Below are positions 1 to 39,808 of a DNA stretch of 64,000 bases, piece by piece (within the stretch, counting starts at the first letter, position 1; each line of letters begins with the position of its first letter). The notes under the pieces are model-generated. The model did not search any database and was not told the DNA's origin. It saw only the letters and a program-made list of their open reading frames with translations. Source of the stretch: Archaeoglobaceae archaeon (GTDB lineage: Archaea; Halobacteriota; Archaeoglobi; Archaeoglobales; Archaeoglobaceae); contig WAKM01000057.1 in NCBI GenBank assembly GCA_015523335.1, positions 1 through 64,000 on the forward strand, in the 5' to 3' direction. The position numbers were made by a program, and so were the translations under genes.

Positions 1-8
1 TGCAAAGG

Positions 9-17
9 CTTAATAAT
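9..17 (+). promoter_or_regulatory. TATA box of feoB
   Basis: The AT-rich element CTTAATAAT is centred about 27 bases before the feoB ATG, the spacing expected for an archaeal promoter whose transcript starts at or next to the start codon. No ribosome site precedes the ATG, which fits a leaderless mRNA. This is inference from spacing only. Confidence 0.45.
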
Positions 18-40
18 CTAAGACGTTTTCGCTATGCTAA

Positions 41-1744
41 ATGAAGATAGCGATGGTCGGAAATCCCAACGTGGGAAAAACAGCCCTACTGAACGTGCTA
101 ACTGGTGGTAACTTCGAGGTCGGAAATTTTCCCGGCACTACCGTGGAGAAAAAGGAGGGAAAAGCCAAAATCGACGGTAGAGAAGTAGTATTCGTGGATT
201 TACCCGGTATATACAGCTTGGAAGCATACTCTTTGGACGAAAAGGTCGCGAAGGATTTTTTAACCAACGAAAAGCCGGACTTGATTTTAAACGTCGTAAA
301 CGCTTCTAATTTGGAGAGGAACTTATACCTTACCCTTCAGCTTGTCGATTTTAAAATTCCGATGATTTTGGTTTTGAACATGGTCGATGAAGCCGAAAAA
401 AAGGGAATTAAAGTCGATGCGGATAAGCTATCTAAGATTTTGGGTGTTCCGGTTGTAAAAACCGTTGCCGTAAAGGGAATTGGAATTAAAGAGCTTAAAA
501 GGGAGATTTTGAAGGGCGGTAGCGTTCCGAAGATCGAGGTCGGTGGAGATCTAAGATCCAAGCTTGAAACGGCTGAGAAAATCGTAAAAGAAGTCGTCAA
601 GATTGAAAGAACGAGGGTTGATCTAACAGAGGTCTTCGATGAGGTTTTCATGGATAGACATTTGGGGATTCCGATTTTCATCGCTTTTATGTGGATGATG
701 TTCACATTCACATACACCGTAGCTACCCCCCTCACCAACTTAATCGCATCGGTTTTCTCGATTCTGTCCGAAAGTATATCGAGTATGAACGGTATTTTGT
801 TCAGTTTGATCGGTAAAGGAATAATTAAGGGAGTCGGAAGCGTCTTAGTTTTCCTTCCGAACATTGCATTTCTGTTCATCGCCCTCGCTCTGCTCGAATT
901 GAGCGGTTACATGTCCCGTGCGGTTTATCTCATGGACGGAATTATGACTGCTTTCGGCTTAACTGGTAGATCCGTAATTCCACTCATTATAGGATTCGGG
1001 TGCAACGTTCCGGCGGTGATGGCTACGAGAACGATCGAAGATGACAAGGTCAGAATCGCGACGATACTCGTCAATCCCTTCATCTCCTGCAGTGCGAGAC
1101 TGCCGATATACGTTCTATTCGCGGGAATATTCTTTCCGACCATTGGCTCTGCCGTTATAATGGGTCTCTACGCCTTCGGAGTTGTCGTTGCGCTGATTTC
1201 GGCTCTTATATTTAGAAAGGTATTGCTGAGGGGCGAGGCGGAGTATATAATCGAACTCCCTCCTTACAGAATTCCGAACTGGAAGGATGTGTGGATTTTG
1301 ACTTGGAATAGAACCAAACACTTCCTCCAGAAGGCTGGAACAGTGATTTTAGCTATGTCTGTTGTTATATGGTTCTTAACGAACTTTCCGAATCCGAGCA
1401 TAGATAAAAGCTATGCTGGAATGCTCGGCAGATTACTGCAACCGTTGTTCGCTCCGATGGGCTGGAACTGGCAGTTCGTTCTCGCAATTCTGATGGGATT
1501 CGTTGCCAAGGAAGTCGTCGTCGAAACGCTGGGGATTCTAAACACACCGATAGCAAAGATAATGACGATGCCGCAAGCCTTAGCATTTATGGTCTTCTCC
1601 CTGCTTTACATGCCGTGCTTGGCTACGCTTGCAACGATTAAGGCTGAGACCGGATGGAAGTGGACGATCTTCGCCGTAGTTTACAGCTTCGCCGTAGCTT
1701 ATGTTCTCGCCCTAACGGTGGGGGTGGTAGCACGATTGATTTAG
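41..1744 (+). CDS. feoB: Ferrous iron transport protein B (FeoB)
   Basis: This 567-residue protein is a membrane Fe(II) transporter with an N-terminal GTPase. The G motifs are in order: GNPNVGKT (G1, near residue 7), FPGTT (G2), DLPG (G3) and NMVD (G4, near residue 111). From about residue 210 the protein is hydrophobic, with two Gate-type permease repeats; the conserved stretches FGCNVPAVMATRT and NPFISCSARLPIY lie near residues 322-350. It is shorter than bacterial FeoB (about 770) but typical of archaeal forms. No feoA is seen; it could lie to the left of the window. The ATG is preceded by a TATA box and looks leaderless. The assignment is secure from the motifs; Fe(II) specificity is from the family. 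Confidence 0.96.
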   Translation: MKIAMVGNPNVGKTALLNVLTGGNFEVGNFPGTTVEKKEGKAKIDGREVVFVDLPGIYSLEAYSLDEKVAKDFLTNEKPDLILNVVNASNLERNLYLTLQLVDFKIPMILVLNMVDEAEKKGIKVDADKLSKILGVPVVKTVAVKGIGIKELKREILKGGSVPKIEVGGDLRSKLETAEKIVKEVVKIERTRVDLTEVFDEVFMDRHLGIPIFIAFMWMMFTFTYTVATPLTNLIASVFSILSESISSMNGILFSLIGKGIIKGVGSVLVFLPNIAFLFIALALLELSGYMSRAVYLMDGIMTAFGLTGRSVIPLIIGFGCNVPAVMATRTIEDDKVRIATILVNPFISCSARLPIYVLFAGIFFPTIGSAVIMGLYAFGVVVALISALIFRKVLLRGEAEYIIELPPYRIPNWKDVWILTWNRTKHFLQKAGTVILAMSVVIWFLTNFPNPSIDKSYAGMLGRLLQPLFAPMGWNWQFVLAILMGFVAKEVVVETLGILNTPIAKIMTMPQALAFMVFSLLYMPCLATLATIKAETGWKWTIFAVVYSFAVAYVLALTVGVVARLI

Positions 1745-36064: not shown

Positions 36065-36111
36065 ATTTTAATGAAAGTAAATTTGCGAAATCCCTCCGAT
36101 TTAGCGAAATT

Positions 36112-36119
36112 TTTATATA
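36112..36119 (+). promoter_or_regulatory. TATA box of the heat-shock operon
   Basis: TTTATATA is a near-consensus TATA box; transcription is expected near 36138-36145, within the HSR1 operator just downstream, and about 30 bases before the hsr1 ATG. Confidence 0.6.
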
Positions 36120-36126
36120 GTCTTCC

Positions 36127-36143
36127 ACTAACCAAATGTTAGT
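36127..36143. promoter_or_regulatory. HSR1 operator, CTAAC-N5-GTTAG palindrome
   Basis: The sequence ACTAAC-CAAAT-GTTAGT is a perfect 6+5+6 inverted repeat eight bases after the TATA box. It matches the CTAAC-N5-GTTAG site that A. fulgidus HSR1 binds in its own promoter (recalled from the published heat-shock work). Its position over the expected transcription start suits repression by blocking polymerase. The site is seen directly; binding is inferred. Confidence 0.82.
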
Positions 36144-36173
36144 AACTTTCCAATGATAATCAAAGGTGATCGT

Positions 36174-36836
36174 ATGAACATCGACACGATCTTGGAAGTG
36201 CTGGGAAACGAGAGCAGAAGGAGGATACTGTCGCTGTTAGCTAAGAAACCCTGCTACGTTAGTGAAATCTCATACTCTCTAAAGATGGCACCGAAAGCCG
36301 TGCTTGAGCATTTAGAAAAACTTGAAAGGGCTGGACTCATCAAAAGCTTCGAGGAGGGTAGGAGAAGATACTACTATATCGACAAGAACGTCAGACTTGA
36401 AATTTCGATTACACCGCACAGATTCTACGCTGACGTAACGACGGAAAACGGAGTAGAATTCGATACAGCCTTTGAGAAAATCTTAGAGATCGTTAAGAGC
36501 TTCGATTTCAGAGTTAGTAGTCTTTCGGACGTAAGCAGGATGCTCAGCAGAATTGAGGAGTTACAGAGAACATTTTCGAGACTTCAGAGTGCCATCAATT
36601 CCAAGATTAATGAACTGTTCGAAACCATTATCGACGAGATCGAAAGGGTATCCGATGACAGCTTTGAGAGGTTGATCTTGCTCGGACTTGCTAAGGGACT
36701 AAATAAGGTTCCGCAACTCGTCGACGAGCTCGGATTACCTTACGTTGAAGTGGAGAGAACGCTTGAGAAGTTGGAGAAGAGGGGATTGGTTGAGAAGGTC
36801 GTTGTTGAGGGTGAGGTTATCTGGAGGATTAGGTAG
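36174..36836 (+). CDS. hsr1: Heat-shock transcriptional regulator HSR1 (ArsR-like winged helix)
   Basis: The 220-residue protein starts with an ArsR-type winged helix-turn-helix (ILEVLGNESRRRILSLL, then CYVSEISYSLKMAPKAVLEHL and the wing RRRYYYIDKN). The remaining 130 residues hold a helical dimer region and a second helix-turn-helix-like segment near the C-terminus (LPYVEVERTLEKLEKRGLV). Gene order hsr1-cdc48-hsp20 equals AF1298-AF1297-AF1296 of A. fulgidus, where the regulator represses its own operon until heat shock. ATG 36174 has AAAGGTGAT just upstream; an in-frame ATG at 36153 precedes the ribosome site and is less likely. Confidence 0.9.
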   Translation: MNIDTILEVLGNESRRRILSLLAKKPCYVSEISYSLKMAPKAVLEHLEKLERAGLIKSFEEGRRRYYYIDKNVRLEISITPHRFYADVTTENGVEFDTAFEKILEIVKSFDFRVSSLSDVSRMLSRIEELQRTFSRLQSAINSKINELFETIIDEIERVSDDSFERLILLGLAKGLNKVPQLVDELGLPYVEVERTLEKLEKRGLVEKVVVEGEVIWRIR

Positions 36837-36837
36837 C

Positions 36838-36845
36838 TATATATA
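36838..36845 (+). promoter_or_regulatory. Possible internal promoter of cdc48
   Basis: TATATATA follows the hsr1 stop by one base and lies about 45 bases before the cdc48 ATG, with GGTGAGGTGA as ribosome site. It could give heat-independent expression of cdc48 besides read-through from the hsr1 promoter. No CTAAC-N5-GTTAG site is present here. Confidence 0.4.
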
Positions 36846-36880
36846 TCATGTGCGTTATTATGATAATTGTGGTGAGGTGA

Positions 36881-39244
<2,364 letters not shown>

Positions 39245-39280
39245 TTTAACTTTTTGTTGTGCTGAACGGGGGTGATAAGA

Positions 39281-39808
39281 ATGGTTTGGTGGAGAAGGAG
39301 GAAGGAGAGAGATTGGGACGACATATTTGAGGAGTTCTTCGGAAGGGAGTTCGAGATATTCGACGAGATATTCGAAAGGATGATGAGGGATCTCGACGAG
39401 TTCTTCAGAGCGGCATCGAGCGGAGAGGTAAGACCCTTCGTTAAGGGGTTCTCGATAAGGATTGGGCCCGATGGTAAGCCTGAAATAAAGGAGTTCGGAA
39501 CGAAGCCGACGGTCGGTGAGGGCATCGAGGAGAGGAAACCGTTAATCGATGTAATCGAAACTGACGACGAAGTTCAGGTGATAGCTGAGATGCCGGGTGT
39601 CAAGAAGGAGGACATAGATCTAAACGCTACCGAGAAGACTCTCGAAATCAAAGCTGAGGGAGAGAACAGGAGATACCACGAAATCGTCGAGTTACCTTGC
39701 GAGGTTGTTCCGGAATCTGCCAAAGCAAGATACAACAACGGAGTTCTTGAGGTAGTCTTCAAGAAGAAGTATCCGGAAAAGAAGGGCAAAAAGATAAAGG
39801 TCGAGTGA
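39281..39808 (+). CDS. Hsp20/alpha-crystallin small heat-shock protein
   Basis: A 175-residue small heat-shock protein. The N-terminal region (residues 1-85) is rich in Trp, Arg and Phe. The alpha-crystallin domain follows, with AEMPGVKKEDIDL and the signature A-x-x-x-N-G-V-L as ARYNNGVLEVVFKK near residue 153. The C-terminal IxI/V motif is replaced by KKIKVE. ATG 39281 has GGGGGTGAT seven bases before it; the GTG at 39272 overlaps that site. It lies 36 bases after cdc48 and should be in the HSR1 operon. Confidence 0.93.
   Translation: MVWWRRRKERDWDDIFEEFFGREFEIFDEIFERMMRDLDEFFRAASSGEVRPFVKGFSIRIGPDGKPEIKEFGTKPTVGEGIEERKPLIDVIETDDEVQVIAEMPGVKKEDIDLNATEKTLEIKAEGENRRYHEIVELPCEVVPESAKARYNNGVLEVVFKKKYPEKKGKKIKVE

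Follow-up and report, generated by a model that had tools for sequence, protein, structure and literature searches.

A probable HSR1 auto-operator in front of the hsr1-cdc48-hsp20 operon of an Archaeoglobaceae archaeon, and a possible 14-bp lattice of half-sites around it

The locus described here raises the question whether a palindrome in front of the genes for a regulator, a p97-like unfoldase and a small heat-shock protein is the site through which this regulator controls its own operon, and whether the neighboring bases belong to the site as well. For Archaeoglobus fulgidus, a footprint of HSR1 (AF1298) on the motif CTAAC-N5-GTTAG and autoregulation of HSR1 were reported (PMC9133787). The window, i.e., the whole stretch of 64,000 nucleotides that was analyzed, contains the corresponding genes:

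36174..36836, plus strand: hsr1, ArsR-type regulator with predicted winged helices at residues 1-70 and 163-219 (profile matches; predicted model)
36887..39244, plus strand: cdc48, p97-like AAA ATPase (TIGR01243, 1175 bits)
39272..39808, plus strand: hsp20, archaeal Hsp20 (NF041800, 184.8 bits, above the cut-off)

These profile matches bear out the gene names given by the first-pass annotation of this DNA. The regulator heads the operon hsr1-cdc48-hsp20 (36174-39808), which lies on one strand with gaps of 50 and 27 bases; a terminator scan downstream of hsp20 found nothing. The hsr1 product has 220 residues; its ArsR-type HTH domain matches HTH_5 with 69.5 bits, and its C-terminus gave another HTH match. 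The same gene order is present in 40 of the 44 loci on named contigs that have an HSR1 relative; three of the four exceptions end at a contig edge and in the fourth (L218) no hsp20 match follows cdc48 in the next 1.6 kb. The region in front of hsr1 has the following elements:

36104..36109, plus strand: GCGAAA, BRE-like element (sequence)
36112..36119, plus strand: TATA box TTTATATA (sequence)
36127..36143, no strand assigned: palindrome ACTAAC-CAAAT-GTTAGT, putative HSR1 operator (sequence; conservation)
36129..36132: operator half-site L1, TAAC
36138..36141: operator half-site R1, GTTA
36143..36146, plus strand: candidate third half-site L2, TAAC, which completes GTTAGTAAC at 36138-36146 (offset kept in hsr1 promoters; 14-bp lattice)
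36152..36155, plus strand: place of a fourth half-site R2, here AATG and unfilled (sequence)
36165..36170, plus strand: GGTGAT, ribosome-binding-site-like (sequence)

The first-pass annotation had described a perfect palindrome just after the TATA box, and this is exactly what is found: the left arm ACTAAC (36127-36132) and the right arm GTTAGT (36138-36143) are perfect inverted repeats around the spacer CAAAT (36133-36137), 8 bases downstream of TTTATATA, with the ATG of the operon following after about 30 bases. The palindrome includes an exact CTAAC-N5-GTTAG at 36128-36142, upstream of the regulator's own gene as in an auto-operator, and the match claimed with the A. fulgidus motif (PMC9133787) holds: the window has that motif downstream of the TATA box, in front of the equivalent operon. 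The block GAAA-TTTATATA is common to most promoters of hsr1 orthologues. The position of GGTGAT favors the ATG at 36174 over the ATG at 36153 as start codon. Given the usual archaeal spacing between TATA box and transcription start, transcription would be expected to start at about 36142-36146.

The mere number of motif copies says little about this site. In the window exact CTAACN5GTTAG occurs once, and the matches with up to two mismatches (22 against 20.95 expected) carry no meaning. A scan of the whole genome (1,396,269 bases in 60 contigs), as proposed by the first-pass annotation, returned one exact copy, at the hsr1 promoter. However, the backwards control pattern also has one copy genome-wide, which counts against the HSR1 reading and makes the genome-wide count no evidence. 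The real evidence is the place of the motif, behind the TATA box and before the regulator gene, together with its conservation. With up to three mismatches 17 matches were found in the genome against 8 and 7 for the controls, and the loose matches inspected (an AbrB-like gene and an unrelated gene) gave no sign of further HSR1 targets. One of these loci (L161, 1100-1170) has two near-palindromes TACTAA...TTAGTA before a small gene, which we take to be of the AbrB-like family. In related genomes of genus g2 (L104, L105, L107, L129-L132), a membrane-protein gene, presumably DUF2178-like, has TCTAAC-N5-GTTAGA with outer half-sites in a different, symmetric layout; it was not counted as an HSR1 target. 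Furthermore, L064 and L065 contain CTAACCTGCGGTTAG in a GC-rich context common to G010 and G011; it seems to belong to a structural RNA helix and not to an operator.

Within the order, an HSR1 orthologue was found in 53 of 57 genomes. In three of the others (G019, G022 and G033) the cdc48 matches end at contig edges, so that the absence of hsr1 is no evidence and a loss of the gene was rejected; the closed genome G023 alone seems to lack hsr1. The promoter set comprised 52 of the 53 genomes. G045 was omitted since no single contig carries its whole gene; an exact site lies 17 bases from the 5' fragment of this gene (G045:C32:1-132). Within 120 bases upstream of hsr1, 45 of 52 promoters carry the exact motif, where 0.01 would be expected from dinucleotide shuffles; four more have it with one mismatch and three with two. 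In 51/52 the TATA box matches in at least 7 of its 8 letters. Core column conservation is 0.86-1.00 (genus-weighted), and the right arm is kept better, with GTTA in 52/52, then TAA in 50/52 and TAAC in 39/52. Moreover, the recognition helix of HSR1, PKAV(I/L)xHL, is nearly invariant in the order and widely kept beyond it. The HSR1 operator reading of the first-pass annotation is thus supported by a motif and an operon kept through the order and by a nearly invariant recognition helix. Judged from its sequence, 36127-36143 is very probably the HSR1 auto-operator, a proposed repressor site of the A. fulgidus type.

Summed by hand, the order has 107 exact sites in total and the control 70, and many of the sites other than those of hsr1 stand before a second hsp20 gene (hsp20-2). 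This promoter set comprised 49 genomes with one promoter each, one of the two copies of G005 being used; the site is exact in 42 and has one mismatch in seven, among them the sister genomes G037 and G038. Left out were seven genomes without a usable hsp20-2 and G046, whose second hsp20 (L183) has no site within 130 bases (best match 4 mismatches), which counts against the HSR1 reading. In G001 exact sites are present at both hsr1 and the second hsp20. The motif at the hsp20-2 promoters fits a regulator common to both promoters, and the second target in A. fulgidus is presumably AF1971, already studied with HSR1. Exact sites outside the hsr1 and hsp20-2 promoters also exist in the order; some were inspected and left aside. 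In the genome of the window (G000) only one HSP20 gene was seen. The stretch that matches G037 (L179) is divided between C26 and the leftmost part of the window's contig (C57:1-3892), and hsp20-2 falls within the missing 1.3 kb. Synteny with G037 points to an assembly gap, and a loss of hsp20-2 in this organism was therefore rejected. Within this gap, some 1 kb left of window position 1, hsp20-2 is to be expected, and an HSR1-type site of its own would probably accompany it.

The comparison of both promoter types suggests that the palindrome may be embedded in a larger arrangement, in which units of TAAC-N5-GTTA, joined by one C or G, follow each other at a pitch of 14 bp. Downstream of the hsp20-2 palindrome, 29 of 49 promoters (nine genera) have GTTA at +14, and 14 of 40 have it at +28; the offsets +4, +5 and +33 have 5, 1 and 1 occurrences, respectively, and all other offsets from +1 to +39 are empty. 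In 1000 mononucleotide shuffles the fullest offset averages 1.8 with a maximum of 4. With one letter relaxed, GTNA stands at +14 in 41/49 of these promoters. When the whole 15-bp motif was scanned with weighting by genus, +14 came out as the top secondary shift in both promoter sets (z 3.3 and 2.7), followed by -4 and +4. The positions filled differ: L2 (TAAC) is filled in 39/52 hsr1 promoters and in only 1/49 hsp20-2 promoters, R2 (GTTA) in 6/52 and 29/49, respectively. We infer that both promoter types share one lattice of which they use different positions, and that the extra half-sites might take up additional dimers side by side or be used by the C-terminal winged helix. Three of the four positions are filled at the window's site.

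Beyond the order, relatives of HSR1 (E 1e-15) were found in 173 of 246 sampled genomes of the phylum. Forty promoters of genomes outside the order (one to four from each family) were examined within 120 bases of hsr1: 13 have the exact motif, four have one mismatch and 23 have more, and 0.06 would be expected with up to one mismatch. The GC-rich homologues of the haloarchaeal type keep the helix and mostly stand without a recognizable site, which counts against the HSR1 reading. The double unit TAACN5GTTASTAACN5GTTA at 14-bp pitch occurs in 15 of the 246 genomes, each time directly upstream of an hsr1 homologue (15/15; control 0). In 392 genomes of the phylum, pairs with a spacing of 0-30 gave 68 matches (tallied by hand), 21 of them at 14-bp pitch, from 18 genomes in five families; another 30 have a pitch of 18 bp and 17 have other spacings. 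In all 18 genomes with an exact 14-bp pair, the pair lies directly upstream of hsr1, as judged from coordinates in 15 and from inspected loci in G095, G341 and G365; the extra match in G095 is the same stretch repeated beside a run of N, and G365 has four lattice units in a row. The pairs at 18-bp pitch were rejected as HSR1 sites, as five of the seven such loci that were inspected have TetR-like or flavodoxin-like neighbors (judged by eye) and none of the seven has an HSR1 match. This class seems to belong to another regulator. At the loci L318-L322 of methanogen-type genomes, TAACN5GTTA palindromes near such genes follow at 18-bp pitch with up to five in a row (L318).

Alternatively, HSR1 might bind the single palindrome only, the half-sites at 14 and 28 bp being leftovers or serving in initiation or translation. 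The motif as given in the published account is one palindrome (PMC9133787), the third and fourth half-sites often lie near the ribosome-binding site, and the four half-sites occur together in none of the Archaeoglobales hsr1 and hsp20-2 promoters examined. However, GTTA follows the hsp20-2 palindromes at +14 and +28 and at most other offsets never, the filler between is varied, and in distant families two to four complete units follow each other at precisely the 14-bp pitch, so that we regard this explanation as rather unlikely. The literature searches returned no description of the lattice; the original account of the A. fulgidus footprint may go beyond what the review says, and part of the present findings may already be known.

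Another regulator could own the site, the adjacency to hsr1 being a coincidence of operon structure. In this respect G023 counts against the HSR1 reading: this closed genome, in which an HSR1 orthologue was not found and cdc48 is represented only by a diverged paralogue, retains a perfect palindrome at its only hsp20 (L138, around 2545), and there another protein might use the hsp20 site. Further ArsR-type proteins are present as well, e.g., a relative of 99 residues with 42% identity in the window's own genome (C3:43417-43659). Nevertheless, the exact lattice pair is directly upstream of hsr1 in 18/18 genomes and the footprint reported in A. fulgidus is that of HSR1 itself (PMC9133787), leaving this alternative a slim chance. 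That the palindrome acts as an RNA hairpin in the 5' leader (6-bp stem, 5-base loop), for which the perfectly complementary arms and the closeness to the expected transcript start speak, has the slimmest chance of all, since the letters themselves are kept without covariation, the altered left arm in family f2 (L047, L051: CTACA...GTTAG) is uncompensated in the right arm, and the TATA spacing would place most of the site ahead of the transcription start.

Returning to the operator reading, it was suggested for A. fulgidus that a protein bound near the promoter represses and that heat relieves this repression (PMC9133787), a model that fits the promoter anatomy found here. A dimer of the 36174-36836 product would bind TAAC-N5-GTTA via its N-terminal winged helices and sit just behind the TATA box, over the expected transcription start, where it might block RNA polymerase from starting the hsr1-cdc48-hsp20 transcript. 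Upon heat shock the repressor would release the operator, and the derepressed operon would supply the unfoldase, the small heat-shock protein and fresh repressor, by which the switch would be reset. The TAAC at 36143-36146 would be part of a second site on the same 14-bp lattice, with one base joining the two, and would probably aid binding of a second dimer or of the C-terminal winged helix. Motif, place, conservation, operon, predicted fold and lattice come from the present analysis, and HSR1 binding and the repression model from the A. fulgidus literature; binding by HSR1 in the window's organism, its release by heat, the role of the extra half-sites and a retained autoregulation of the A. 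fulgidus type are what we would infer.

As a summary, the operator in the window is of a known type, that of A. fulgidus HSR1, which it resembles in core letters, spacing, operon and position behind the TATA box and from which it differs in the spacer (CAAAT here, ATAAA there). What the comparison adds is the conserved second target, the deep conservation and the lattice. By this, a footprint from a single species is extended to an operator kept across the order, and more thinly across the phylum, in front of the p97-like unfoldase of archaea. Should the lattice hold true, the pitch of 14 bp and the filled positions would give a testable rule for the tightness with which each heat-shock promoter is repressed.

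Among the other known regulators, Phr of Pyrococcus furiosus shares the ArsR-type N-terminal domain. The AF2 model of HSR1 (mean pLDDT 89.5, pTM 0.68) predicts winged helices at about residues 1-70 and 163-219 with a long helix between them, and VIA-align aligned 89 of its N-terminal residues with Phr (2p4w_B; Z 14.1, 1.9 A, 53% identity); Z 11-14 is reached by many ArsR proteins over this domain as well. Heat-shock targets of Phr include Hsp20 and an AAA ATPase (PMC10653856, PMC5852551), a further likeness to HSR1. In contrast, the C-terminal part of Phr is described as BAG-like (PMC6316755), where HSR1 has a predicted second winged helix. The Phr operator consists of TTTA / TGGTAA / AAAA around the start site (PMC6316755); no TGGTAA was found in 36120-36160, with TAGTAA at 36140-36145 being one letter off. 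By the NCBIfam cut-offs HSR1 is neither Phr (Phr_regulator, 96.2 bits, cut-off 320) nor SurR (54.6 bits, cut-off 250).

SurR (PF0095) of the Thermococcales matches the predicted fold over the full length (VIA-align with 2quf_A: Z 16.0, 208 aligned residues over 1..220, 3.4 A, 23% identity): its wHTH domains are reported at 1-75 and 166-219 and its CxxC at 24 and 27 (PMC12162507), and HSR1 likewise is predicted to have two winged-helix domains with a helical link. However, the target of HSR1 is a heat-shock operon, and of the two cysteines of this redox switch the first is missing in HSR1 (K24). It keeps C27 (codon 36252-36254), which is invariant in 35/35 aligned HSR1 sequences and not present in all phylum homologues; at this position it would be a first candidate place for stress sensing by HSR1. 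For SurR the motifs GTTn3AAC and GTTn3AACn5GTT are reported (PMC8595942), and the longer one equals R1-L2-R2 of the HSR1 lattice (GTTA-S-TAAC-N5-GTTA) in letters and spacing, with the difference that HSR1 always has AAC-n5-GTT and GTT-n3-AAC is optional. We therefore propose, tentatively and with slightly more doubt than conviction, that HSR1 reads a 14-bp lattice (TAAC-N5-GTTA-S-TAAC-N5-GTTA...) whose filling sets promoter strength, and that, its grammar being that of SurR, the heat-shock regulators (HSR1, perhaps Phr) and the sulfur regulator (SurR) of Euryarchaeota go back to a single ancestral regulator and retained its DNA code, with changes in signal and targets. If so, the little-studied heat regulator HSR1 would be tied to the better-studied redox regulator SurR.
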